Shown: positions 1 to 14,961 of the stretch, piece after piece
Numbering within the stretch: the first letter of the stretch is position 1
Layout of the letters: each line of letters starts with the position of its first letter
Assembly: GCA_004321925.1 (NCBI GenBank)
Contig: SCQH01000098.1
Coordinates: forward strand, 1 to 37,811
DNA: 37,811 nucleotides
Source of the DNA: Nitrospirota bacterium
GTDB lineage: Bacteria; Nitrospirota; Thermodesulfovibrionia; Thermodesulfovibrionales; UBA6898
Direction: 5' to 3'
The notes under the pieces: generated by a model
Told to the model about the DNA's origin: nothing
The model's input: only the letters and a program-made list of their open reading frames with translations
Databases searched by the model: none
Translations under genes and position numbers: made by a program

Positions 1-526
1 GTTCTCCGTCCCACTGCCAGTTACGGTTCTTGTCCAGATACCAGATCCCGTCCTGATAGATACCGATCTCAGCTATCCCGTCTCCATTCCAGTCACCTAC
101 TACCGGCACTTCCCCGGTCATCCCGACCCCAAACACTCCTATCTTATCCGTAGGCTCACCGTCCCACAGCCAGTTGTTATTCATGTCCAGGTACCAGGTC
201 CCATCCAGGTAGACCCCTATCTTGGTTATCCCATCTCCGGTCCAGTCTCCTACCACCGGGATCGCTCCGGTCATCCCGACCCCAAATACTCCCCTTTTAT
301 CGGTAGGTTCTCCGTCCCACTGCCAGTTACGGTTCATATCCAGGTACCAGATACCGTCGATGAATACCCCTATCTTGGTTGTCCCGTCTCCGGTCCAGTC
401 CCCTACCACCGGTATGGCCCCGTCGAGTCCTACCCCGAATATCCCAAGGGTATCTGCAGGGGTCCCTTCCCATGCCCAACTCTGGTTCGAATCCAGATAC
501 CAGGTGCCGTGATCGAATATCCCGAT
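1..526 (-). repeat. 153-bp tandem coding repeats (FG-GAP-like, 51 residues each)
   Basis: Within the giant gene, units begin at 526, 373, 220 and 67 going leftward. Each encodes a block with motifs IGIF/IGVF, TWYLD, NW.WDGEPTDK, GVFGVGM, IPVVGDWTGDG. The last three are very similar at DNA level. The GDWTGDG loop resembles the calcium-binding loop of FG-GAP/VCBS-type repeats. The array continues off the left edge, so the copy number is unknown. Confidence 0.9.
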
Positions 527-3500
527 CTTGGTGGGGGCTATGGCGGTCGTAAAGGTCGCCGTCACGCTGCAGTTGGCTGTTACCGCGCTTGTCGTATAGG
601 TGAATGCCGATGTCCCGTTTGCAGGTGTTCCCCCGCAGGTGCCGGTCATCGCCGCCGTATACCCGCTGTTCGGCGTTACGGTGAAGGTTGTCGCTGAGCC
701 GTGGTTTACGGTCCTCGATGCAGGGCTTATCGTTCCTCCTGCACTGCCGCTGGCACTCACTGTCCAGGTCTTGAGATTTGCTGTGCAGGTCGGGGAGGTA
801 CTTCCCCCGTTTGATCCGGCACAGGTCCAGGTCCATGGTCCGCTGCCGCTCACTATTGACGGTGTACCGGGGTTACAGAGGTTTACTGCAGGTGCTGTAT
901 CAAATGACTTGTTATTGGATGACCCGCATACTCCGTTTACCGGGGTTAGAGTGAATGTGGCTGTCACACTGCAAGCCGCTGTCACAGCACTTGTCGTATA
1001 AGTAAACGCTGATGTCCCGCTTGCCGGTGTTCCTCCGCAGGTGCCGGTCATCGTCGCTGTGTATCCACCGTTTGGTGTTACGGTAAAGGTTGTTGATGAG
1101 CCGTGGTTCACTGTCCTTGATGCAGGGCTTATCGTACCTCCTGCACTGCCGCCTGCTGTTGCTGTCCAGGTCTGGATGTTGGCTGTGCAGGTCGGGGAGG
1201 TGCTTCCCCCGTTCGTTCCGGCGCAGGTCCAGGTCCACGGTCCGCTGCCGCTTACGGTTGATGGCGTACCGGGGTTGCAGAGGTTTGTTGCAGGCTTTAC
1301 GGTGAATGTCCCGGTATTGGATGATCCGCATTCGCCGTTTACCGCAGGTCTTGTCAGGCTGAAGTTCAGGGTAACGACCGCATAAGGCCCTATCAGAACA
1401 TTCGTTACCGTGGCAGGATTATACCCAGTCGCTGTCACGGTGATGTCTGTTGCTACCGATGGCACCTGTGAGAAATAATGCCCTCCCGGTGACCCGTCTG
1501 TCCCGGGGGGCAGGGTGTGCACGGTCAAGCCCGGCCCAGGCCCGCCAGTCGCAGTGGTTGTGATCGCAGCACCCACTATGGCCGCACCGGTCGTCTTATC
1601 CGTTACCATGCCCGTCAGGTACCCATTGGCATCGTTGGGGTTATTGGTTATAAAGCTCCACTCTCCTCCGGCTTGGTTCAGGTTGCTCCTGGTTGCTGCA
1701 CCATAGGCATCCACTGCCCATACCCTCCAGTAATAGGTCTTGTTGTCGGTTAGGCCTGCCTCCGGTCCTATCACGGTATAACTGTAGGGTATCTCTTCTT
1801 TTGTATAGATTATGTTGCTGCCGCTGAACGGCAGGGCCTTTGCTATCTCAACGGTATAGGTCAGTCCGTCCGCGTCTGTACTTTCTCCCCAATCAAGGAC
1901 GAGTGTCGTCAACTGGTCCACTCCGTCTGCAGGGCTGACCGGACTGAACGCCGATGGCGGCGGGTTGTTGTCCCTGTCTTTGTATACCACGGATCTCTTC
2001 AGGGGTGACAGGAGTTTGGTATCTTTGTCTCTAACAAAGTAATAGATCTCATATGCGCCGCTCTCGGTGAACTGGTCAAAGCTGTATTCCCAGTTGCTCG
2101 TCCCTGCGTTCCAGGTCATCGGCCTTTTTGTTAGCTGAAGGTCCTGCTGGATACTGTCTGCCGGGGGATTAAGCACTAATGATGGTTGTCTTATCTCCAC
2201 CCAGACTGCTGTATCCACTTCGTTGTTGTCGTTGACCTTGGCCGTAAGCAGTGCTGTTATGTCGCCCGCACTTGAGGTGCGATAGATTGTACCTGATACG
2301 GTTGTGACTACCGCAGGGTTTAAGGCTGAGTTGGTGCCGAAGTTCGCCACACCGAGTTTCAGGTTTGCCGCTTCTGCACCGTCTCCGCTTGCATCTCCGC
2401 TCAGCGTATTGCTGCCGGTGCCGTCTCCGTTGTCTTCCATTTGCGGGTGCTGCACTGCACCGTCATAGTAAGGCGCATTGGCATTAGGGTTTGTGCCGCC
2501 TTTCCTGGTGAATATCTCTGTCCGTGCCGTCGCCTCTTCAAAGGCCTCTTTGAAGGTCTTGTCATTTCCAAGCAGGCTAAAGAACTCCTCAAGGAAGAAC
2601 TCCCCGCTCCTGATGGTCGCCCCTCCTTCTGAAGGCTCCTCAGGTCCTTTGTAGGAGACTTCGTTGTCTGCTGCGCTGGTGATGATCATCCGCCCTGCGT
2701 TGCTTGCTGTCGGGGCCTGTGTGAGTGAGGACATGAAGCTCCCTGAGTAGCACGACCCTATGATCACTATCCTCTTTTCCTTGAGCGCCTCGGGGTTGGC
2801 GTCCGCTCCGTTCATCAGGTTCGTCTCAAGGTTGCTCAGCCAGGTACTGAGGTCTGTCGGTGTGATAGTCTCGCTCCCGGTGTAGAAAGCGTTTGTGCTG
2901 CCGTGGTCCACCATGATCACATAGAGCGGTGCAGGCACCCCCTTCATCCTCGGCGCTGCCCACTCCTCTATCGCGTACTGGATATTTGCCCTCGACGGTA
3001 TCCCGTCTACCCCGGTTGAGAGCTGATAGCTCAGGTAGTAGATGTTTTCATCCGAGAACCCGCGGGATTTCAGATGCGTGTATATCCGGCCGGCGGTCTT
3101 TGAATGGGATTTGAGCCCCTCAGGGTCGGTACTGATCTTGCCCACTACGATGACTGCGTATCCGGCAGAGGCGCCTACCATAACGGTCATCGGGGTCGAT
3201 TGGGAGGCGCTCAAAAGTCCTGAGTTGGTGTTTTCGTAGAAGGCCTGGATGCTGTAGGGCCCTTTTTGGGTGAAGACGTTTATGTTCGGTATCTGGAAGT
3301 CTCCGTAGCTGTCATTTACGGTTGTGGTCAAAGGTGTTAGGGCCACGCCCTTGGGGTCCCAGATCTTCAGTTTGATCGTCTCGCCTGTCGGGTCTGCCCC
3401 GTTTGCTGATAGGTTCTGCAGTCTCCCCCAAACGGTCAGAGTGTTTGGCAGGGCGGTGCTGCCACTTGGGTTGATGGTAGGGTTTGACATATCAAGCGAC

Positions 3501-6136
3501 AGTGCAGTAACGCCCGGCGTGAAGGTGTAGCTCTGGCTGCCAGGGGCACCGCTGTTGCCGAGCAGGTCGGTTGCAAAGTACCTGAGGGTCGTCTGCTGGT
3601 CTAGCGGGATAGGAGTCGTATATATTGCTGATGAGGTGGTAGGGGGGGTGCCGTTTGTGGTGTAGTAGATCCTATCGCAGCCTGAGCCTCCTGTGTTGTC
3701 TGTACAGGTAAGGCTTACCAACTGCGGTATACCATAGGTCGCACCACCAGGGGCCGCACTGACGCCAGGACCGGTAGTGTCAAGGATGATCGTATCGCTC
3801 ACCGGTGCAGACAAGTTGCCTGATGAATCCATAAACTTTACATAAACCGTCTTCAGGCCATCTTCCGTGGTACCGCCATATGCCGCATTTGTCATGTCCC
3901 AACTCAGCTTTGTTGCCGAATAGGTTTCAGACGATGACCACGCGGAACCATTATTGCTGAACTGCATCCAGGAACAGGTCCCCTGCAGATCGCCGCAGGT
4001 GAGGGTTAGGGTTACAGAAGTTGACCCCGTGTTAGCTGCATTGTTATTTAATTTGATAGTGCCTATCGGCGGCGTAATATCAGTCAGGGCATTGGTTGCA
4101 TACTTAAGGTCGGCATTTGTTTTGTCATAATAGCTGATATGCACCCCGTTGCCGCTGTCCACTGCGATTGAGGAGTTTACTCCGACATCTCCCGTAATGT
4201 CTATTGTTTCGGTTACCCAACTGCCTGTGGCATTCGTCGCATATCTCAAGTTATAATTTGGCTGCCAATCATAATAACTGATATGTATCTTGTCGCTGCC
4301 GTCGACCGCGATTGATGTATCTTGAGTCACGTATCCTGCATTGTCTATTGTGACAACTGCCCATGAACCTGAGGCATTTGTCGCATATTTTAAGCCTGTA
4401 CCCACATAGCTGATATGTATCCTGTTGCTGCTGTCTACAGCGATTGAAGAGCTTGTCCCCACATCTCCAGTACTGTCTATTGGCGTAATCACCCAGCTGC
4501 CTGTTGCATTCGTCGCATATTTCAGGTCTAAATTTGTCATATCATAATAGCTGATATGCACATTGTTGTTGCTGTCCACGGCAATTGACGACTCCCTGCT
4601 GGAACTGTCTATTGGAGCAGTTACCCAACTGCCTGTTGCATTTGTCGCGTATTTCAGCACTCCAGCTGCATAATAGCTGATGTGGACCTTTTTATTGCTG
4701 TCGACTGCCAACGATGTATAATGCCCAGCCGATGACCCCGTGCCGTCTATCGTCGTAGCCACCCAGGTGCCTGTGGCATTCGTCGCATATTTCAGATCGA
4801 CATTGGTCAAATCATAATAGCTGATATGCACCTTATTGCTGCTGTCCACGGCAATCGATGAATACATCCCTACATCCCCTGTACTGTCTATTGCCGCAGC
4901 CGCCCAAGGGCCTGACGCATTCGTCGCATATTTCAGATCTTTATTTTTAGTGTCATAATAACTGATATGTATCTTATTACTGCTGCCCACCGCGATCGAT
5001 GGGTCACTTCCTACATCTCCTACACTGTCTATGTTCTTCTTCACCCAGGCACCTGAGGCATTTGTCGCATATCGAAGGTCTTTGTTCTGCCATTCATAGT
5101 AGCTGATATGTATCTTGTTGTTACTGTCAAATGCTATTGAGGTGAAGTAACCCGCATTAGTTCCCGTATTGTCTACCGTCGAAATTACCCAACTGCCCGA
5201 AGTATTCGTTATGTATTTCAGAGAGAAAGGGAAGCCTTGCAGATAACTGATATGCACTTTACCACCACTATCCACAGCAATCGAGGCCATGTCACCTGCA
5301 TGCGATGTGCTGTCTATCGTCGAAGCAACCCAGGCGCCTGTGGCATTTGTCGCATATTTCAGATGGTAGTTTATATTGTCATAATAGCCTATATGTACCT
5401 TGTCATTATTGCCGACTGCGATTGACGTACAGGTACCTACATCTCCGGTGCTGTCTATAGTAGAGGCCACCCATATGCCCGAGACATTCGTCGCATATTT
5501 AAGGTCCAGATTTGTTTTGTCATAATAACTGATATGCACGTTCCCTACACTGTCAACCGCTATCGAGGGAGACTTGCCGACATCTCCCGGACTGTCTATA
5601 GTAGAAGTCACCCATGTGCCCGAAGCATTCGTCGCATATTTAAGGTCCAGATTTGTATTGTCATAATAGCCTATATGCACCTTGCCGTTGCTGTCCACGG
5701 CGATCGATGAGTATAAACCGACATTGCCTGAATCAATGATGATATTTTCCCACTGCCCAAGCCGGTTCGTGGCATATTTCAGATAGCCATTGGTCAGGTC
5801 ATGGTAACTGATGTGTACCGCGTTATTCGCATCAATAGCAATGGAAGCGGATATTCCGACAGAAGGGGAATCATCGAGTGTCTCATATATCCACTGTGTC
5901 CCATTGAAATAGGCATGATACAGGTGATCGGTCCCGTATACAATATGCGGATTGTTTGTTGACTTTTCAACAGCAATAGCCCTTGACGAATTGGATTTTA
6001 TAGATGCTATATAGGCTACAAAACTTTTTGGCGCATCCACACTCTGGATGTTCCACGCAGCGTTTGAGTTCAGCGGCAGGGCAAAGGCAAAAAAGAGGAC
6101 CAGACTTGCACAAAGCATCTTCAAATGGATCTTCAT
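1..6136 (-). CDS. Giant secreted multidomain protein with clan CD (legumain/caspase-like) peptidase domain, partial
   Basis: Reading the minus strand from the ATG at 6136 gives one uninterrupted frame to the left edge, so at least 2,045 residues are present and the C-terminus is missing. A GGAGGA ribosome-binding site lies 4 nt before the ATG. Order seen: signal peptide (about 1-27); 13 clear plus one degenerate copy of a repeat of about 45-47 residues with core VHISYYD..LKYATN (about 48-684), probably beta-propeller blades; a chitobiase C-terminal-like segment (about 785-850); a peptidase-like domain (about 985-1230) with His1078 in DHGS and Cys1129 in GSCYSG, the dyad arrangement of clan CD peptidases (C13/C14/C25); an Fn3-like domain (about 1385-1490); a carboxypeptidase-regulatory-like domain (about 1500-1590); two copies of a 134-residue InlB-like repeat; and 51-residue FG-GAP-like repeats. 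It is probably a cell-surface or secreted protease/adhesin. Substrate unknown. Confidence 0.88.
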   Translation of the reverse strand, partial: MKIHLKMLCASLVLFFAFALPLNSNAAWNIQSVDAPKSFVAYIASIKSNSSRAIAVEKSTNNPHIVYGTDHLYHAYFNGTQWIYETLDDSPSVGISASIAIDANNAVHISYHDLTNGYLKYATNRLGQWENIIIDSGNVGLYSSIAVDSNGKVHIGYYDNTNLDLKYATNASGTWVTSTIDSPGDVGKSPSIAVDSVGNVHISYYDKTNLDLKYATNVSGIWVASTIDSTGDVGTCTSIAVGNNDKVHIGYYDNINYHLKYATNATGAWVASTIDSTSHAGDMASIAVDSGGKVHISYLQGFPFSLKYITNTSGSWVISTVDNTGTNAGYFTSIAFDSNNKIHISYYEWQNKDLRYATNASGAWVKKNIDSVGDVGSDPSIAVGSSNKIHISYYDTKNKDLKYATNASGPWAAAAIDSTGDVGMYSSIAVDSSNKVHISYYDLTNVDLKYATNATGTWVATTIDGTGSSAGHYTSLAVDSNKKVHISYYAAGVLKYATNATGSWVTAPIDSSSRESSIAVDSNNNVHISYYDMTNLDLKYATNATGSWVITPIDSTGDVGTSSSIAVDSSNRIHISYVGTGLKYATNASGSWAVVTIDNAGYVTQDTSIAVDGSDKIHISYYDWQPNYNLRYATNATGSWVTETIDITGDVGVNSSIAVDSGNGVHISYYDKTNADLKYATNALTDITPPIGTIKLNNNAANTGSTSVTLTLTCGDLQGTCSWMQFSNNGSAWSSSETYSATKLSWDMTNAAYGGTTEDGLKTVYVKFMDSSGNLSAPVSDTIILDTTGPGVSAAPGGATYGIPQLVSLTCTDNTGGSGCDRIYYTTNGTPPTTSSAIYTTPIPLDQQTTLRYFATDLLGNSGAPGSQSYTFTPGVTALSLDMSNPTINPSGSTALPNTLTVWGRLQNLSANGADPTGETIKLKIWDPKGVALTPLTTTVNDSYGDFQIPNINVFTQKGPYSIQAFYENTNSGLLSASQSTPMTVMVGASAGYAVIVVGKISTDPEGLKSHSKTAGRIYTHLKSRGFSDENIYYLSYQLSTGVDGIPSRANIQYAIEEWAAPRMKGVPAPLYVIMVDHGSTNAFYTGSETITPTDLSTWLSNLETNLMNGADANPEALKEKRIVIIGSCYSGSFMSSLTQAPTASNAGRMIITSAADNEVSYKGPEEPSEGGATIRSGEFFLEEFFSLLGNDKTFKEAFEEATARTEIFTRKGGTNPNANAPYYDGAVQHPQMEDNGDGTGSNTLSGDASGDGAEAANLKLGVANFGTNSALNPAVVTTVSGTIYRTSSAGDITALLTAKVNDNNEVDTAVWVEIRQPSLVLNPPADSIQQDLQLTKRPMTWNAGTSNWEYSFDQFTESGAYEIYYFVRDKDTKLLSPLKRSVVYKDRDNNPPPSAFSPVSPADGVDQLTTLVLDWGESTDADGLTYTVEIAKALPFSGSNIIYTKEEIPYSYTVIGPEAGLTDNKTYYWRVWAVDAYGAATRSNLNQAGGEWSFITNNPNDANGYLTGMVTDKTTGAAIVGAAITTTATGGPGPGLTVHTLPPGTDGSPGGHYFSQVPSVATDITVTATGYNPATVTNVLIGPYAVVTLNFSLTRPAVNGECGSSNTGTFTVKPATNLCNPGTPSTVSGSGPWTWTCAGTNGGSTSPTCTANIQTWTATAGGSAGGTISPASRTVNHGSSTTFTVTPNGGYTATMTGTCGGTPASGTSAFTYTTSAVTAACSVTATFTLTPVNGVCGSSNNKSFDTAPAVNLCNPGTPSIVSGSGPWTWTCAGSNGGSTSPTCTANLKTWTVSASGSAGGTISPASRTVNHGSATTFTVTPNSGYTAAMTGTCGGTPANGTSAFTYTTSAVTANCSVTATFTTAIAPTKIGIFDHGTWYLDSNQSWAWEGTPADTLGIFGVGLDGAIPVVGDWTGDGTTKIGVFIDGIWYLDMNRNWQWDGEPTDKRGVFGVGMTGAIPVVGDWTGDGITKIGVYLDGTWYLDMNNNWLWDGEPTDKIGVFGVGMTGEVPVVGDWNGDGIAEIGIYQDGIWYLDKNRNWQWDGE
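536..1339 (-). repeat. Two 402-bp direct repeats (134 residues each, InlB-like)
   Basis: Two adjacent units (1339-938 and 937-536) inside the giant gene share the order NG.CGSSN, NLCNPGTPS, GSGPWTWTC, GGTISPASRTVNHGS and TFTVTPN. The TISPASRTVNHGS part resembles the bacterial InlB B-repeat type of surface-protein module. High DNA similarity suggests a recent internal duplication. Confidence 0.85.
4087..5860 (-). repeat. Array of 13 coding repeats of about 141 bp (propeller-like blades)
   Basis: Thirteen units with the core pattern SIAVDS..KVHISYYD followed by LKYATN..G.WV...ID are read on the minus strand. A more degenerate unit just before them (containing NPHIVYG) would bring the count to 14. 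Some units are shortened (one lacks the Asp-containing loop), so this is a diverged array and not a fresh tandem expansion. Confidence 0.88.
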
Positions 6137-6553: not shown

Positions 6554-8524
6554 TTATTTCGTCACGATCAGGTCCTTCTCCCTTATCTCCAGCGGAGAGG
6601 GCTTCTCGAGTATCTTGGCCTTCGAGAAGTCTTCCTGTATCTCCTCAAGCCGTCCCTCGCCTAACTTTATTGAATCAAAGCCAAGGGATTTGCCGGTGAC
6701 CGGGTGCTTGACCTCCTTGCCCTTGCGGTAGATGATGATGGCGGCGGCCTTATGGAGCTTTGCTTTGCTGCCGATGTCGGTATACACCATTCCCGCGTCT
6801 TTCTTGATCACCATGCCTTCCGTCAGAGGAAAGGCATTTGCGATCTTGGCAGCAAGCCCGTCCATCAGTTCCTTCACCGTCCCCATGCCCTTGTCCTCGG
6901 TGAATACGTCCTTCACGTCCATCACCTCGGAGGTTTCGGTATTGATCACCCGGGAAATGATCTCGATCGACTTCGCATCTTCCTTTACGGAGGTCGCGAC
7001 TATTGCGCTGGCAGCCATGAGCTTGCCGACCCTGATGGAATGCTCGGGGTCCGTAAGCTTTGCCCTGGTCAGCTTCTGTTCCTGAAGCACCTGTTCCAGT
7101 TTTGCCCGCTCGATGATACTGAACCTCTTCTGATCGACAAAGGAGCCGATAAGATGATCATAGGCAAGGTCACTGTAGCCCGGGTTCTTCTGCCTGCTCT
7201 CAAAAGGCAGGACCGTAATATTCATTCTCGACCCCACCTGCATGACCGACGGGATCTCCCTTTTGACGGTCAACTCAGAGACTGCCTTATTGCCTGAGCC
7301 GTCCACTGCTTCAACGATAATTTTGTTGCTGCCGGCATTCAGCTTTACCACCTTGCTGAAAAAGACCTTTTTGCCCTTGCCGGACGAGATCTCCATGCCG
7401 TTGACCAGCACTTTTTCGACCTTCTTGTTGTCAAAGGCCTCACCTTCGACAAAATAGCGGTCGACAAAGACTGAAGGGAGATCGCCGGACTCTTTCAGCT
7501 TTATGACCGGGAGCTCTTTGTCGAAACCGAGGATCCCGGGGGCGTTAAATGCAAGGAGCACGGGTTCGGGCCTGCGGCTGAAGGCTGCAATATCCCTCTC
7601 GACCTCGATCACCGCCTCATTGTCGTTTTCCAGAACATCGACTGCCTTAATGCTGATCCGCTCCCCGGCCTTCTTCCTGCTTATTGCAAGATCGAAGTCA
7701 TAGGCAACACTGCCTTTTACCTCGAACTTCTCATCGCCGACAACAACTGACTTTATCCCCGTAGCATCGCTGACCGTGCCGGTGATCCTTACAAACTTTT
7801 CTCCGGCCCTATCCTCAAGCTTTATGTCGGATATCGCAACCCCGGGTCCCTCACGGTCAACGGTCACGACATGCTCGGCCGACGTCTTGTTGCCGAAAAG
7901 ATCTTCACATACAACCGTGATCCTGTTTTCTCCATCAAAGACCTGAACTTCTTTCTCAAAAGTAACATCACGCCCGGCAAGTTCAAAGCGGTATTGTTCA
8001 CCGTTGACCGAGATCTTCGATACAAGCCCGTCTCCCGCAGCCCTCCCCTTTATTCTTACCGACAAGGCCTTGACCGGCCGGCCCTGGGCCGGAGAATCGA
8101 CAGTAAGGACAGGTGGTCTGACCTGGGTTCCCTTCTTCTGCAGCTGTGCCTTTCTCGCCCTGTTCAGATAAAAGACCGCCTTTGCAGACTCCTCGTCGCG
8201 GACCGACCTTTCCAGTTCGCTTACAGCCTCATCGATCTCACCTCTCGTCAGATATGCAATACCCAGCTCTCGATGGGGGAAGTAGTCGATAAAGTGCATG
8301 CCATAGGTCCGGGCCATCCTCTGGTCCTTCTCCCGCATCGAAACGGCCCTCGTAAGGTCTGCAACGACTTTTTCCCATTCGCTGGCCTCGGCCGAGCCGA
8401 GGGCCCGGTCATAATAGTTCCACCATTTTCCGCGGAACGTCCCGCTTTCGTCTGCTGAACATTCCAGCCTCAACGGGGCCGCAAGAAAACTTAAGAGCAG
8501 AAGAAGGGTGGCGATAGGCTTCAT
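6554..8524 (-). CDS. Exported TPR / Ig-like / CsgG-like domain protein
   Basis: 656 residues with a hydrophobic N-terminal signal (about 1-24). A helical TPR-like segment follows (about 35-130), then about three Ig-like or glucodextranase-B-like beta domains (about 135-420, e.g. SVNGEQYRF and GENRITVV). A CsgG/FlgO-like domain spans about 432-570, with ITVLPFES and ERAKLEQVLQEQKL. The C-terminal 85 residues resemble the FlgT C-terminal domain (HPVTGKSLG, S.AKILE). CsgG-type domains oligomerise in the periplasm or outer membrane. An AGGAGA site 5 nt before the ATG supports the start. It ends the run of closely spaced genes from 12.4 kb, 9 nt after the beta-barrel gene. The cysteine at position 22 lacks a good lipobox, so it is probably periplasmic and not a lipoprotein. 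Confidence 0.8.
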   Translation of the reverse strand: MKPIATLLLLLSFLAAPLRLECSADESGTFRGKWWNYYDRALGSAEASEWEKVVADLTRAVSMREKDQRMARTYGMHFIDYFPHRELGIAYLTRGEIDEAVSELERSVRDEESAKAVFYLNRARKAQLQKKGTQVRPPVLTVDSPAQGRPVKALSVRIKGRAAGDGLVSKISVNGEQYRFELAGRDVTFEKEVQVFDGENRITVVCEDLFGNKTSAEHVVTVDREGPGVAISDIKLEDRAGEKFVRITGTVSDATGIKSVVVGDEKFEVKGSVAYDFDLAISRKKAGERISIKAVDVLENDNEAVIEVERDIAAFSRRPEPVLLAFNAPGILGFDKELPVIKLKESGDLPSVFVDRYFVEGEAFDNKKVEKVLVNGMEISSGKGKKVFFSKVVKLNAGSNKIIVEAVDGSGNKAVSELTVKREIPSVMQVGSRMNITVLPFESRQKNPGYSDLAYDHLIGSFVDQKRFSIIERAKLEQVLQEQKLTRAKLTDPEHSIRVGKLMAASAIVATSVKEDAKSIEIISRVINTETSEVMDVKDVFTEDKGMGTVKELMDGLAAKIANAFPLTEGMVIKKDAGMVYTDIGSKAKLHKAAAIIIYRKGKEVKHPVTGKSLGFDSIKLGEGRLEEIQEDFSKAKILEKPSPLEIREKDLIVTK

Positions 8525-8533
8525 GTCATTCTC

Positions 8534-9859
8534 CTAAAAATAATAGATCAGGGACATCATGACCGTATGCTGATTTATATCGGCACTGCTCCCGGGGATT
8601 CCCGGCACATCTCCGGTGACCCTCCTGCCGAACCTGAACTGGTAAGAGGCGTCGAGAGAAAACCTGCTTGTGGAATAACCGGTCCCGAGGGAGAAGCCGT
8701 AGAAGTCGTCCGGGCTCCCTTTTGCGGGCTCGGGGTCATAGAAGACGCCGGCCCTCACCGGGACGACATATTTTTCCTTTATGATGAGATACTCTGTCCC
8801 GAGCCGCACCTGGGTGGTGTCTTTTAATCTGCCCTCGCTGATCGGTGCAGCATCGAGGGGGTTCACTTCGTTCCCCGCGGAGTCAACCAGGCTGAACCTC
8901 GACCACCCGGTGCGATAGACATCCAGGGCGATCAGCCATTTGTCTGATTGCCGGTACGATATGCCAAGGCCATAAGAGGCAGGCATCTTCATCGTCAGGT
9001 CGCCGGCAAATGTTGTCGTCGACTCATCATGAATTGACAGGTCAGTAAGATCCTGGCTTTGAGTAGAGGTCGTTTCCCTCCGGAGCTTGCCGTTAAAGGC
9101 GGTCTTATACACACCGCCGATCGTGATCGGTCCCGAGACATTCCAGAGAAATCCGATATTGGCGTTCGTACCCCTAAACGACGTACGGCTCGTCTCGTCA
9201 AACTTGTCTACCAGGTTATGGCCGAAAAATATTCCCTGAGAGTTTTGAGTGTAGGTTTGTTCCCATCCGTTCTTTCCAACGTAATCACCCCAGAAATTTA
9301 TCGTAGCGCCGATATAGAGCTGCGGGACGACCTGTATGGCAAACGCTGGAGTAAGTGCATAGAGATACCCTTTCTGGACAGAGTGGATAGTTTCATTGAG
9401 CTTTGTTCCATCGATATCAAGGGTATAGTTAAAACTGACCTTTTTATCCATCTCATAGAGCCTCTGGTAGTTGAGTGAAACGATCATATTATGCTTCAGA
9501 AAGACGAAGGGATATGCGGCGCTCGCGTAGTTGAGGCCGGCCGTGTCCATGCTGTTCGTGGACTCGATCTCAGGATGGATATCGGAATGATAGGTCTGCG
9601 ACCTGCTGAAATAAGAGCCGACCACAGATATCTCCGGCTTTTCGAGATGTATCAGGCCGGCAGGGTTCCAGGATGCCGCGGTCGCATCATCCGCAACACT
9701 GATGAAGGCGCCTCCCATGCCTGTTGCCCGTGCACCCGAACCGACGGGATTGAGCGTGGAAGATACTTCAACCTGCTGTGCCCATGCACCGGAAGTCATG
9801 AAGAACAAACCTATGAGCAGCCCGCATGTGCTGATAAGAGATCTGAAAACGCCTGTCAT
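8534..9859 (-). CDS. FadL/OmpP1-like outer-membrane beta-barrel protein
   Basis: 441 residues from the ATG at 9859, chosen because the GAGGGGGA ribosome-binding site is 6 nt before it; an in-frame ATG at 9863-9865 overlaps that site. A signal peptide ends near AWA|Q. The mature N-terminus carries the hallmark NPVGSGARATGMGGAF...DDATAASWNPAGL pattern of OmpP1/FadL and related PorV-like barrels. The body is rich in alternating beta strands and the chain ends in Tyr-Phe, typical of BAM-inserted barrels. Family members move hydrophobic compounds or act as secretion or attachment partners. It sits between two CsgG-domain proteins, which suggests it is the outer-membrane component of the same system. 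Whether it transports, or anchors the giant secreted protein, cannot be told from sequence. Confidence 0.82.
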   Translation of the reverse strand: MTGVFRSLISTCGLLIGLFFMTSGAWAQQVEVSSTLNPVGSGARATGMGGAFISVADDATAASWNPAGLIHLEKPEISVVGSYFSRSQTYHSDIHPEIESTNSMDTAGLNYASAAYPFVFLKHNMIVSLNYQRLYEMDKKVSFNYTLDIDGTKLNETIHSVQKGYLYALTPAFAIQVVPQLYIGATINFWGDYVGKNGWEQTYTQNSQGIFFGHNLVDKFDETSRTSFRGTNANIGFLWNVSGPITIGGVYKTAFNGKLRRETTSTQSQDLTDLSIHDESTTTFAGDLTMKMPASYGLGISYRQSDKWLIALDVYRTGWSRFSLVDSAGNEVNPLDAAPISEGRLKDTTQVRLGTEYLIIKEKYVVPVRAGVFYDPEPAKGSPDDFYGFSLGTGYSTSRFSLDASYQFRFGRRVTGDVPGIPGSSADINQHTVMMSLIYYF

Positions 9860-9874
9860 AACCATTCCCCCTCA

Positions 9875-12400
9875 TTATGATTTCGATTTTGTCGTTGCAC
9901 CATTTTTGACCCCCTCTATATTACCTGATGAAGGGTTCTCTGCTTTGGCCCATTCCAGGATCTTCCCGCCGAGCTGCTTAACGGTCTCCCGGTCAAGGGT
10001 CTTGCCGGTCGTCTCAGCGGAGACGACCTTCCTCACTGCTGTCGTTTCCGTATCGATGAGCCTGAGCATGACAGCCTGTCCCTTTGAGTCGGCCATAATG
10101 CTTCCGGTAATGATGATCCTGGCAGAAAGGACCTTTCCGATCTTCAGCGCCGTCGTCGGGTCAGCAAGAGATGAATTGCTCAATTTAAGTTCCTCCAGGA
10201 GCTTTTCGAGCAGTTCCCTCTCCACCATCTGCACGCCCTCTCCTTCCTGCAGGACCGCTGTGAGCATATTCACCAGATTATCCCGGTCGGCAGTCGCGCC
10301 TGTTCCGGAGGGCTTGACATCCATGATCACCATGGTGAGAGGGCCGGTCTTTCGGGCATCGCCCACCTTTGTCCGGTCAAAATTGCCCTGTCTATAGGAT
10401 GCGGCGAGCGACGCCACAAGCTCGTCAATGCGTTTACGCGACTTCTCGTCGCTTGCCGGGGCTGACGGTGGCGCAACCACCGCCTGCACCTTGGGGTCTG
10501 CCGGGCGGCTGCCCCAGAGAAACAACCCGGCAAGACCCGCGATCAGGACCAGCGCAGCGCCGACCGCCAGAAGACCGACAGGAGATCTTTTCCCGGGGGT
10601 GGCCGAAAAGACCTGTTCCCTGGTCCCCGCCTCGACTGACACGAAGGAGCCGGCCTTCTCCTCTCCGGCGGGTTCGCTTCTGAGGGACTCCTGAGACGGG
10701 TCTATGTACCTTGTAGTAGGATCGCCGTAAAGCATATAGCAGGCCCATACGATTGTATCTTCTCCGTACTTGTCTATCAATGCCTGGCGCGCCTGGCGCA
10801 CTGCCTCGCCAATCGTCATGCCGTCGATAAGGTTCTGGTAAAAGTTCACGGCAAAATGGCATCCGGCCTCGTCCGGGATCTCCCAGAAGGTGCCTATATA
10901 ATGCTGTACACCAGTCAGCAGGAAGGCGTTGGCGAGGCCGAAGATCCGGTGTTCGTAGTCTTCGCTGAGCCGCCACTCATCGGTCTGTCCCGATTGGCAT
11001 GCGTTTGAGAAGATGAGTGAGGGCATCGGCATCTGTCCGGTCATGGTCATGATCTGTCCGGCCTTCAGAGTGCCGTCCTTCAGGAGCCATCCGCTTTCCT
11101 CCGGGTGTTCCATGACATGTTCTGCATGCCCCGCATAATGGACAATATCGAAGTTCCTGATCTTGGAGCGGACATAATCAGTCTTTATATCGGTCGTCCT
11201 CAACGAAACATCCACCCAGTCGTCCAGCTTTTCCATATCGCTCTTGATCGCGAGCCCTTCCTCATAGGCTGCCTTGAGGTCTCCCCGAGGGTCTGCAAGT
11301 ATCTGCATCTTCAACGGCCTCCCGACCGCCCTGCTGACGGCAGAGACAGGCTGTTTTGTGCTTACCGACCTCCCAATGCTGAACCGCTGACAGAGAAAGT
11401 CCCTGCCGTCATAGAGAAGCTCCCAGGGTATCTGGACAAGCGTGTCATCTATGCTTATGGACAGGTGCTTCTGCTCTGTCTGCAGAAGTTTGCCCTTTAT
11501 CTCCTGCGGAATCAGCTCGTCAAAGAGAAGACCTCCGACCTCTTTCAAACGAATGAAGATGTCATTGCCGATCTTCCCCCTTCTGTTTGCGCGGTTGAGA
11601 AGGCCGGTGATCTCCCTGGTATGGTTTCCTATGGTGCCGACATGATAGGGGACCTCCTGATAATTCTTCACCGGCCGCTCCTCGCCATCGGCTCTCTCAA
11701 ACCCGCTTATTTTAAGTTTACTGCCGGCAAGGGATGCCTCTATTACGAATAAGCCCTCTTTTGGGGTAACAGCCCTGACAGCCTTTCTTGTCCTGCCAAG
11801 GTGCAGGTCTTCGTTGCGCCAGATGAGGCGGTACGCCTTTATCGGCTCACTTTTGCCTTTGACCGAAACAGAATCGAAATATCTGAAGATAAACTCATCA
11901 TTGCTCCTTACCTCACGGTAGAGGTCTTCAGACACCATGACCTCGTCGGCGTCGGCAAGGGACTCTAGCCTGCTTGCCAGGTTGACAACGTCGCCGTATA
12001 CGTCTGATTCTTCGACAATGCCGACACCATAATTGATACCGACGCGGACATGGATCTGTTCCTTTTGCGACTTCTTGTCATTGTAGGTCTGAAGCCTCTT
12101 CTGCACTGCCACCGCGGCCCGCACTGCTTCGGCAGGGTCGTCGTAAGCCGACATGGTCGCATCGCCTATCGTCTTGAGCACCTCACCCTTGTTCTCTTTG
12201 ATCGCCGGCATAACGACCTCGTTGTGCCGGTGGACCATCATCCTGCCGTCCAGATCGCCATGCTTTTCATAAAAGGACGTGGACCCCTTGATGTCCGTGA
12301 ACATGATCGCCACACGTTTACTGAACTGGTCATGAAGGATCGCGTCGAGCCTTGCCCTCTCCTCCAGGATCTTCTCGATGTCATTGTTTTTTTCAGTCAT
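9875..12400 (-). CDS. Adenylate cyclase - CHAT protease - TM - CsgG-like fusion protein
   Basis: 841 residues. A class III nucleotide cyclase domain (about 28-190) has both metal Asp residues (D36 in FTDIKGS, D80 in TIGD), the adenine-selecting Lys76 and Asp137, and the transition-state pair Asn140/Arg144 (VNLASR), so it should make cAMP. Residues about 215-565 form a CHAT domain (caspase HetF-associated) with His425 in HYAGHA and Cys468 in SNACQSG, the intact catalytic dyad. One transmembrane helix lies at about 606-630. The C-terminal part (about 685-820) is a CsgG-like domain with VERELLEKLLEELKL. With cytoplasmic enzymes, the CsgG-like part should be periplasmic. The start has a GGAGGGG site and overlaps the anti-sigma gene by 8 nt, so the two are probably co-transcribed and translationally coupled. 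This looks like a transmembrane receptor that joins an envelope cue to cAMP and proteolysis. Confidence 0.9.
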   Translation of the reverse strand: MTEKNNDIEKILEERARLDAILHDQFSKRVAIMFTDIKGSTSFYEKHGDLDGRMMVHRHNEVVMPAIKENKGEVLKTIGDATMSAYDDPAEAVRAAVAVQKRLQTYNDKKSQKEQIHVRVGINYGVGIVEESDVYGDVVNLASRLESLADADEVMVSEDLYREVRSNDEFIFRYFDSVSVKGKSEPIKAYRLIWRNEDLHLGRTRKAVRAVTPKEGLFVIEASLAGSKLKISGFERADGEERPVKNYQEVPYHVGTIGNHTREITGLLNRANRRGKIGNDIFIRLKEVGGLLFDELIPQEIKGKLLQTEQKHLSISIDDTLVQIPWELLYDGRDFLCQRFSIGRSVSTKQPVSAVSRAVGRPLKMQILADPRGDLKAAYEEGLAIKSDMEKLDDWVDVSLRTTDIKTDYVRSKIRNFDIVHYAGHAEHVMEHPEESGWLLKDGTLKAGQIMTMTGQMPMPSLIFSNACQSGQTDEWRLSEDYEHRIFGLANAFLLTGVQHYIGTFWEIPDEAGCHFAVNFYQNLIDGMTIGEAVRQARQALIDKYGEDTIVWACYMLYGDPTTRYIDPSQESLRSEPAGEEKAGSFVSVEAGTREQVFSATPGKRSPVGLLAVGAALVLIAGLAGLFLWGSRPADPKVQAVVAPPSAPASDEKSRKRIDELVASLAASYRQGNFDRTKVGDARKTGPLTMVIMDVKPSGTGATADRDNLVNMLTAVLQEGEGVQMVERELLEKLLEELKLSNSSLADPTTALKIGKVLSARIIITGSIMADSKGQAVMLRLIDTETTAVRKVVSAETTGKTLDRETVKQLGGKILEWAKAENPSSGNIEGVKNGATTKSKS

Positions 12401-13052
12401 GATTCCCCTCCCCGGACATTTCTTTTATCTTCAGCGTGATACTTCCAAAAACTTTGCCGTTCTTTCGGATGATGACACTATACCTTCCTGGACCGAGCTC
12501 CTCAAAGACGCTGCGGCCTCCGGCAAGGTGCTCGGAAGCAATTATCCTGCCCTCTGACAGGAGCTCGGCCCGTAAATGATCGGACCGGACGTTCCTGGCA
12601 GCAGGAACATCGACTATGATAGTGCAAAGGCCGCCCCGGCTCCTCTGAACGTCAAGCTCCAGATCAAACTCGTCAAAGGACTTCCTTATGACCACGACCT
12701 CAGGCTCCTGTGAGCCGTTCGACCTCAGGGCATATGAGACCTGAGGTCGAGAAATATCAGTGCCGCTGTCACTTATTAGCACCCGAATAGTATTCCCAAT
12801 AAGACCTAATACTACATCAAAAAGTCCTTTGTCGGACGGAGACAAGGAAATGACATGCCGCAGAAGTCCTTCAGGCACGGGCCCTGCCTCCGGCCCGGCA
12901 GATGAATGTCCTGTTCGATATAATGCAAGCAATTCATCGATCAGACACGGGTCTTTTGCAAGGAAGGCTTCGATCTCCTGCCGGCGCTCCCCTGACAGCC
13001 TGCCCTCGAAAAAGGCAGCTATGTCGGTCTCTTTTGCACGCTCAGCCTTCAT
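12393..13052 (-). CDS. Putative soluble anti-sigma factor (zinc-less)
   Basis: 219 residues; start supported by GGGAG 8 nt upstream. The N-terminus (about 8-46, IAAFFEGRLSGERRQEIEAF) has the helical pattern of anti-sigma/zinc-finger domains of the 'egrLs.eer..vE.hL' type. The usual His-x3-Cys-x2-Cys zinc ligands are absent; only one Cys (36) remains. There is no transmembrane helix. The C-terminal half (about 130-212) is beta-rich and ends in an Ig-like fold (FEELGPGRYSVIIRKNGKVF). It follows the sigma gene by 114 nt and overlaps the cyclase/CHAT gene, a classic sigma/anti-sigma/effector order. Function is inferred from position and the N-terminal pattern. Confidence 0.6.
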   Translation of the reverse strand: MKAERAKETDIAAFFEGRLSGERRQEIEAFLAKDPCLIDELLALYRTGHSSAGPEAGPVPEGLLRHVISLSPSDKGLFDVVLGLIGNTIRVLISDSGTDISRPQVSYALRSNGSQEPEVVVIRKSFDEFDLELDVQRSRGGLCTIIVDVPAARNVRSDHLRAELLSEGRIIASEHLAGGRSVFEELGPGRYSVIIRKNGKVFGSITLKIKEMSGEGNHD

Positions 13053-13166: not shown

Positions 13167-13793
13167 TTACACGCCGCTGAGATTATTTTTCAGTCTCTTG
13201 ATTATCCTGTGCTTTCTGGAATAGACAAGGTCATCGGAGATTCCCAGCACCTTTGCCGTTTCCTCGGCGCTGCATCCCCTTATGAACAGAAGATGATATA
13301 TCAGGCGGTCTCGCGGGATCAGCCGCGCCACTTCCCTGGCAAGGATTTCCCCCGTCTGCTTCCCTGCGAGCAGGACATCTGCAGGACTCCCGCCGTCAGC
13401 AATCGTCTCCCATATGTCGCTGTTCTCGTTCGCAGGCTCAGCACTGAGATGCCCTTTGTCCTGACGAATGAAGTCAATCGTCCTGCGGCCTGCTACTACG
13501 GTCAGCCAGGTAGAGAGGGAGCAGTTGTTATCGCCCCTGAACTGCCGGAGCTTTCTGAAATCGTTTTCGATAAGGGAAAGGAAGATGGAGTTGAAGAGGT
13601 CCTCGGCATCCTCTTTACGGCAGGCAAAATTGTAGAGCGCACAGGTCCTGTGGATCGCGCTCCAGATAAGCCCGGCATATGTTCCAACGAACTCTTCCCA
13701 GGCCTCCTGATGCGAAACGCCGAGGCACCTCTCAATGAGGTCGGAATCGCCCGTTTTTCTTCTGTCATGCCCTTGACCAATGACTAGAAGCAC
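13167..13793 (-). CDS. ECF-type RNA polymerase sigma factor
   Basis: 208 residues. Region 2-like sequence at about 35-112 (EDAEDLFNSIFLSLI, CSLSTWLTVVAGRRTIDFIRQ) and a region 4 helix-turn-helix at about 150-205 (CSAEETAKVLGISDDLVYSRKHRIIKRL) match the sigma-70 ECF family. It should direct RNA polymerase to promoters of its own locus. The start is uncertain: the longest frame begins at GTG 13793 with a GGAG about 14 nt upstream, and the conserved part begins near residue 15, so a later non-ATG start is possible. The likely anti-sigma partner is the next gene. Confidence 0.85.
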   Translation of the reverse strand: MLLVIGQGHDRRKTGDSDLIERCLGVSHQEAWEEFVGTYAGLIWSAIHRTCALYNFACRKEDAEDLFNSIFLSLIENDFRKLRQFRGDNNCSLSTWLTVVAGRRTIDFIRQDKGHLSAEPANENSDIWETIADGGSPADVLLAGKQTGEILAREVARLIPRDRLIYHLLFIRGCSAEETAKVLGISDDLVYSRKHRIIKRLKNNLSGV

Positions 13794-13966: not shown

Positions 13967-14848
13967 TTATTGCTCCATGCAGGTGATATAGAACTCGCCA
14001 AGATCAGGGTCGGTGACCGCTATTGACGCTGTGGATATCGAGTTTATCGAAATTGGCCTGGAGTTATACAGGCCCGGTGTGGTCGTACAGATAGGCATCG
14101 ACGACATTGCCGGATTAAAGGTCAATTCAAAGGTATCGATCCCGGTCTTTACAACCGTTCCGAAGCCCCACCCGCGTGTAATATGAGGAAGAAGACTTAT
14201 ATCGATATTGACAACCGCCGCTATGATACGGGACACCCCCGCCGACCCGGAAGCGCCCGCCGGTCCCTGCGGACCCGGGGCACCCGTCGCGCCGCTGTCG
14301 CCTTTTGGCCCCTGTGGACCGGCAGGGCCGGTCAACCCTGTATCTCCTTTGTCTCCCTTCGGACCTTGCGGACCAGTTTCACCTTTTTCTCCCCTGAGCC
14401 CCATGCCGGCCTCTGATTCAGAAACTTCCATCACCGTAAAGCTGATAATTCCGTCATCCTCGGAATATTTCAGTAAAACCCTTGCATACTGCCTGATGCT
14501 CTGGCCAAGATTGATCATCCATGATTCATCTACCCGCGTCTTGATAATTGCCAGAAGCGGAATGTTCAGGATGCCCCGTTCCGCGTCAAAAAAAGCAGGA
14601 TTGGAAGTAAACTCCTCTGATTCCGCTCTGTCGACAAGAACGAACTTCACCTGCTCAAATTCAGCTTTCGGCTCAACCGCCGCAAGAGTTACGTCGAACA
14701 CCCCGAGGCCGGGAACATTCACACCCTGCACCCTGAGCTTGCCGTCTGCCTGCGTATATGTTGCACTGGCGAGACTCTCTCCATATCCCAGAAGTATCAT
14801 CAATAAGGAAATTGCCGCCAGCGAAGAAAAAAACTTTGATCTATCCAT
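13967..14848 (-). CDS. Secreted collagen-like (Gly-X-Y) repeat protein
   Basis: 293 residues from ATG 14848, chosen because GGAGGG lies 5 nt upstream; the frame opens further but without a ribosome-binding site. A signal peptide ends near LASA (about 29). A beta-rich N-terminal domain (about 30-148) precedes 18 perfect Gly-X-Y triplets (150-203, rich in [12 protein letters not shown]), then a C-terminal globular domain of about 90 residues with two Cys (254, 290). Bacterial collagen-like proteins form trimeric stalks or surface fibres, with the globular ends setting trimerisation and binding. It lies 173 nt upstream of the sigma gene on the same strand. Whether it belongs to the same regulon is inference. 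Function unknown beyond a structural surface role. Confidence 0.85.
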
Positions 14849-14961
14849 TGTTGCCCTCCAATAAATATATGTCCTCATCTTAATGCCTACCATTACTGCC
14901 AAGAATATAGCAGATTGATCAAATTCTGTATACATTTTATTTTGGACATATTGATTTGATA

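Follow-up and report, generated by a model that had tools for sequence, protein, structure and literature searches.

The locus studied here raises the question of whether a Nitrospirota bacterium exports a caspase-like peptidase, to which family such an enzyme would belong, and whether it is tied to a second caspase-like enzyme encoded nearby. The locus lies on a contig of 37,811 nucleotides (SCQH01000098.1, assembly GCA_004321925.1), which was analysed over its whole length and is called the window below. At one edge of the window is a giant open reading frame of 2045 residues (2..6136, minus strand, as are all parts of the protein given below), which has an ATG start and runs past the contig end at its 3' side. 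A preliminary description had read this frame as a very large secreted clan CD peptidase embedded in adhesin-type repeats, and the locus as encoding two caspase-like enzymes, a cytoplasmic one with a CHAT domain and an exported one, which might form a cascade or recognise a common target.

The peptidase domain and its export signal

Residues 985-1230 (2447..3184) form a Peptidase C13 domain, as found by Pfam, alignment of homologues, profile comparison with the PDB and fold search. When taken alone, this fragment matches Peptidase_C13 (PF01650) with 27.9 bits (cut-off 22.8, E 2.1e-6) and the caspase family C14 with 23.1 bits (cut-off 21.4, E 6.6e-5). All 24 homologous domains match PF01650 (E up to 0.01, best 1.7e-13) and only one of them matches C14; family C14 was rejected for the giant since C13 scores higher. 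The Pfam search gave no C25 match for the giant, bearing in mind that a profile search can miss weak relatives, and the C25 profile matched the neighbouring CHAT protein. Searching the PDB directly with the single domain sequence gave no credible match, and legumain was reached by family profiles only. A profile of 20 members from both clades of the family matched human legumain (9.8e-11), GPI-anchor (glycosylphosphatidylinositol-anchor) transamidase (1.1e-6) and metacaspase (4e-4), and in this alignment the DHG motif pairs with the DHG of legumain and GxCxSG with its EACESG.

The catalytic residues are His1078 in VDHGS (codon 2903..2905) and Cys1129 in GSCYSG (codon 2750..2752), 51 residues apart and at the very places proposed before. 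Spacing on its own is weak evidence; in human legumain, His148 and Cys189 are 41 apart. Both residues are invariant in the 24 close homologous domains, and the dyad is likewise kept in 20/20 of a wider set, so that it is not a product of chance. In the alignment of the 24 close members G8, H27, H94, G143, C145, S147, G148, E175, S177, G194 and E195 are present without exception, H94 being His1078 and C145 being Cys1129.

Structure prediction of the domain, which had been suggested as a check, gave a fold that agrees with legumain and the caspases on a model of modest confidence. A single-sequence AlphaFold2 model with a predicted local distance difference test score (pLDDT) of 40 was not used; the two-sequence model had a pLDDT of 53 and a predicted template modelling score (pTM) of 0.60. 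With this model Foldseek placed legumain first (2.7e-5), while VIA-align placed caspases first (Z 12.6, root-mean-square deviation 4.0 A over 200 residues), with no legumain among the matches listed by VIA (best 50). We prefer C13 over this caspase ranking, because Foldseek and the sequence profiles favour legumain.

At the N-terminus a Sec-type signal peptide was read from the sequence (residues 1-27, MKIHLKMLCASLVLFFAFALPLNSNAA, 6056..6136), by which the predicted exported location is well supported. The sequence evidence thus supports an exported clan CD peptidase domain with an intact dyad, of family C13 rather than C14 and probably not of C25. The secreted clan CD peptidase of the preliminary description therefore holds, with its class now refined to C13.

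Relatives, specificity pocket and flanking modules

Searches covered about 400 genomes from the phylum of the window and about 400 from that of a Gammaproteobacteria metagenome-assembled genome (the Pseudomonadota search), and they found some 30 further C13 relatives. The relative in the Gammaproteobacteria genome is 48% identical and lies in a protein of 2866 residues with 18 FG-GAP_3 stretches and thrombospondin repeats; a scan of viral contigs found no relatives. All homologues are located within large open reading frames (867-4504 residues), of which a genome often has several and at most about eight. Where the N-terminus is complete, many carry a signal peptide by eye. The fronts of the homologues vary, being of NHL, FG-GAP and, by eye, RCC1 type. 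In genome G080, one open frame of at least 4504 residues fills a whole contig (L019:1-13512, plus strand), with the C13 domain at residues 3806-4029.

The tree has two well-separated groups. The window's clade I (100/100) consists mostly of genomes from the Pseudomonadota search together with G080, and the second clade (100/100) of NHL-propeller proteins from the window's own phylum. In three loci of the second type (L021, L024, L027) the first C13 domain is followed by a further one in which His is replaced by Asn or Arg and Cys by Ser or Pro, and this second region was rejected as a second active site for that reason. The first domain of L027 and that of L021 have an insertion between His and Cys; the one within L027:1-4926 (minus strand) is about 330 residues long and is of Cleaved_Adhesin/reelin type according to Pfam.

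The S1 pocket of legumain is formed by Arg44, His45, Ser216 and Asp231 (PMC4357240). Ser1010, His1011, Ser1161 and Glu1179 of the giant align with these positions, the last of them lying past the printed profile alignment and being placed by manual extension. Like legumain, the giant has a caspase-type fold and a DHG...(E/G)xCxSG site, keeps the equivalents of His45 and Ser216, and has legumain (MEROPS C13) as the closest PDB family by sequence and first in Foldseek. It differs by Ser for Arg44, Glu for Asp231 and, two residues before the catalytic Cys, Gly for Glu187; it also has no evidence of the LSAM C-terminal domain, and the peptidase is embedded in a bacterial multidomain protein of 2000 residues. 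Members of the second clade have mostly Thr, Ala and Thr at the positions of His45, Ser216 and Asp231, and mostly Asp two before the Cys. Judging by these aligned residues, the two clades probably differ in what they cut.

Repeats flank the peptidase as had been described, though the term adhesin-type covers them only in part. The front is an array of 13 tandem repeats of about 47 residues (residues 98-683, 4088..5845), which has no Pfam match and would fold in a propeller-like manner, with the consensus SIAVDSxNKVHISYYDxTNxDLKYATNATGxWVxxTIDSTGDVG. It is followed by a CHB_HEX_C_1 or Fn3-associated sandwich (residues 797-864, 3545..3748, Pfam E 4.5e-16) and, immediately N-terminal to the peptidase, by an immunoglobulin (Ig)-like segment (3185..3499) which sequence comparison finds in the homologue L002 as well, the alignment covering the segment's end.

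Directly after the peptidase, alignment shows the conserved motif QHPQMEDNGDGTGSNTL (2402..2452), which has an EF-hand-like acidic loop and by its look may be a calcium loop. In clade I it reads QHP-x-x-DDNGDG-x-GSN, and a DDNGNG stretch resembling it is present in clade II. Further on there are a conserved beta-sandwich (SGTIY...KRSVVYKDR, 1937..2329, by alignment), a CarboxypepD_reg-like domain (residues 1507-1595, 1352..1618) below the Pfam cut-off, and two copies of an InlB-B-type repeat (Flg_new_2), the better one at 545..763 with a Pfam E of 2.7e-6.

The last part of the frame consists of repeats of 51 residues (residues 1867-2045, 2..538), which were found by repeat comparison and are truncated where the contig stops. 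Since the window comprises all of contig C119, the C-terminus is absent from the assembly and not just from the window. The same 51-residue repeat is found in at least eight other open reading frames of this genome (including L132-L137), and by eye many of these have signal peptides. In the frames with a complete 3' end, the stop codon comes directly after the repeats, in two of them following ...GVVPVPGKW. It is therefore probable that little of the giant is missing and that its repeat array forms the C-terminus. Motifs of the LPXTG, PEP-CTERM and type IX kinds were not seen in the giant, the true C-terminal end of which lies outside the contig. The repeat may be a tail that these proteins share for surface location or secretion.

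The neighbouring gene cluster and its recurrence

Upstream of the giant's gene is a cluster on the minus strand. Read from its head, it consists of an ECF (extracytoplasmic function)-type sigma-70 factor (13167..13793; profile match and orthologues), a conserved 219-residue protein without Pfam match, which from its position would be anti-sigma-like (12393..13052), a protein with class III cyclase, CHAT, membrane helix and CsgG/LpoB-like parts (9875..12400; Pfam), a FadL-superfamily outer-membrane barrel (8534..9865; Pfam and orthologues), and a CsgG-like exported protein with Glucodextran_B Ig domains (6554..8524; Pfam), the orthologues of which have a lipobox by eye. The CHAT profile match has an E of 4.5e-36, and the dyad is intact, the HYAGH and NACQSG-type motifs being conserved in intact orthologues. 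One hydrophobic helix follows the CHAT domain, and the protein is predicted to be membrane-anchored. Thus there are indeed two caspase-like enzymes and one is exported, but the CHAT enzyme is predicted to be held at the membrane and not free in the cytoplasm. None of the PADLOC defence models matched the giant; the CHAT protein gave weak matches, to Pycsar cyclases with its cyclase domain and to BovA with its CHAT domain. An exported collagen-like protein is encoded at 13967-14935, directly upstream of the sigma factor.

C13 genes recur beside FadL and/or CsgG orthologues in five genomes (G000, G377, G184, G349, G386). The same cluster order together with a C13 gene is present in G377 (L085+L027), the order CHAT, CsgG, C13, FadL in G184 (L026), and C13, CsgG, FadL, CsgG in G349 (L022). 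In G386, FadL adjoins C13 on one contig, and the sigma factor, 219-residue protein, CHAT and CsgG genes are on another. Genes resembling phage tail genes by eye adjoin this FadL-C13 pair on the opposite strand (L021:12135-17723). The C13 protein is of the second type in G377, G184, G349 and G386 and of clade I in the window. The strongest reason to think that the link is meaningful is this presence of two kinds of C13 giant at a single cluster.

Among 396 genomes of the window's phylum, strong C13 giants are present in 7 and the CHAT gene (counted at better than 1e-50) in 12; 5 have both. This gives a P of 2e-7 by genome and of 0.002 by family, phylogeny being corrected no further than by counting families. 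The interpretation that joins CHAT and C13 is borne out in so far as the pairing recurs in other genomes. Either part is also found by itself, which makes the link optional, though recurrent, and led us to reject an obligate pair. The C13 gene is missing from the four other genomes of the genus, and neither the CHAT nor the sigma gene has a strong match there. This suggests that the genes were gained together or were lost in the relatives. In the open-access literature we found no paper describing an association of C13 giants with a CHAT cluster, and nothing relevant on CHAT with CsgG, FadL or cyclase clusters.

Alternative readings and meaning

We consider it probable that the giant is an exported protein with an active C13 endopeptidase in its middle, located at the surface or released, and that the cluster forms an envelope regulatory module of its own, to which giants from two distinct C13 clades would have been joined. 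The giant would pass the inner membrane via Sec and would then cross or dock at the outer membrane, with the FadL-family barrel and the CsgG-like lipoprotein as probable envelope partners. Its propeller-like front and its Ig, carboxypeptidase-regulatory-like and InlB-type modules would keep it attached to the surface or a target, where His1078 and Cys1129 may perform limited cleavage or acyl transfer on a neighbouring surface protein or on the giant itself. The activity, the localisation, the partnership with the FadL barrel and any regulation by the CHAT protein are what we infer from the domains and their gene neighbourhood.

Several observations weigh against this reading. Two of the four S1 positions of legumain are changed, and Asn/Asp specificity can therefore not be assumed for the giant. 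The AlphaFold2 model was built from only two sequences (the window protein and L002), the C-terminus is missing, and several clade I homologues have no evident N-terminal signal peptide, for which another export route may be used. A gap of 417 bp, rich in A+T, lies between the C13 gene and the cluster, so that the two are at most putatively cotranscribed, though no terminator was found within it. Finally, no C13 gene was detected with the CHAT clusters of G031, G259 and G379, those of G259 and G379 being at or close to a contig end. Conversely, G373 and the Pseudomonadota-search genomes have C13 giants but no CHAT orthologue, the CHAT matches in the latter being weak (25-31% identity).

These unpaired genomes also bear on a cascade, in which the CsgG-like domain of the membrane cyclase-CHAT protein, lying in the periplasm, would act as a sensor and the protein would govern whether the C13 enzyme is released or activated, by proteolysis or by a cyclic nucleotide. 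The two genes in one gene cluster, the C13 proteins of two clades found with it, the co-occurrence by genome and the two intact dyads agree with such control. We regard it as possible but unlikely, given the partners found alone, the different compartments of CHAT and C13, and the fact that no cleavage site was identified. Recognition of a common target by the two would likewise be no more than a possibility.

Also unlikely is a C13 enzyme that mainly cuts its own flanks and so frees the front or the tail. The conserved acidic DNGDG loop with its Asn (GSN) directly after the domain would suit this, as would the activation of legumain and gingipains by cleavage outside the domain (PMC4357240); here, too, no cleavage site is shown, and the acidic motif may simply bind calcium.

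An enzyme that cuts exported proteins and joins them to a surface acceptor, with the FadL barrel acting as PorV does for PorU, seems improbable to us. GPI-anchor transamidase (GPI8/PIG-K) is of the same family and was matched by the family profile, but it is part of a eukaryotic membrane complex, the partner subunits of which are absent from the giant's locus. The 51-residue repeat is shared with many exported proteins as a common tail would be, but it ends in its own repeat without a visible cleavable sorting motif. Like the gingipains and other type IX proteins (C25, PorU/PorV/PorZ), the giant is an exported clan CD protease in a multidomain protein near a FadL-family barrel, and its relative L027 has a Cleaved_Adhesin match inside the C13 domain. 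Unlike them it is C13 and not C25, with no type IX sorting domain seen in the part that lies on the contig, and the BamG/PorV matches of the barrel are weak and far below the cut-offs. A search of the genome for SprA gave no match, its positive control also failing to match. Type IX secretion is not supported.

Improbable, too, is the combination of these ideas into an envelope-spanning two-caspase system, in which the ECF sigma factor and the inner-membrane cyclase-CHAT protein would control a surface C13 enzyme that, with the FadL barrel, cleaves or attaches exported repeat proteins. Such a system would parallel PorU/PorV of type IX secretion in function but would use another protease family. 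That the C13 fold is catalytically dead and serves an adhesin only for structure or binding is very unlikely: dead second copies exist in the wider family, but both residues are present in the window's domain and in all first domains that were checked.

The preferred reading, an exported C13 giant beside a separate regulatory module, thus concerns a peptidase family that is best known from eukaryotes (legumain, GPI transamidase). Bacterial metacaspases, orthocaspases and CHAT proteases, to which the neighbouring CHAT protein belongs, are also of clan CD; the giant differs from them in being C13 and exported. In a survey of metacaspases, 30 of 671 were in the extracellular category (Asplund-Samuelsson et al. 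2012, PMC3501461). The C13 proteins described here make up a family of exported giants in bacteria; it has two clades differing at aligned S1 positions, dead second copies and a recurrent link to a gene cluster with a membrane-bound CHAT-cyclase protein. With this locus one can examine if two caspase-like enzymes, one on either side of the envelope, cooperate.

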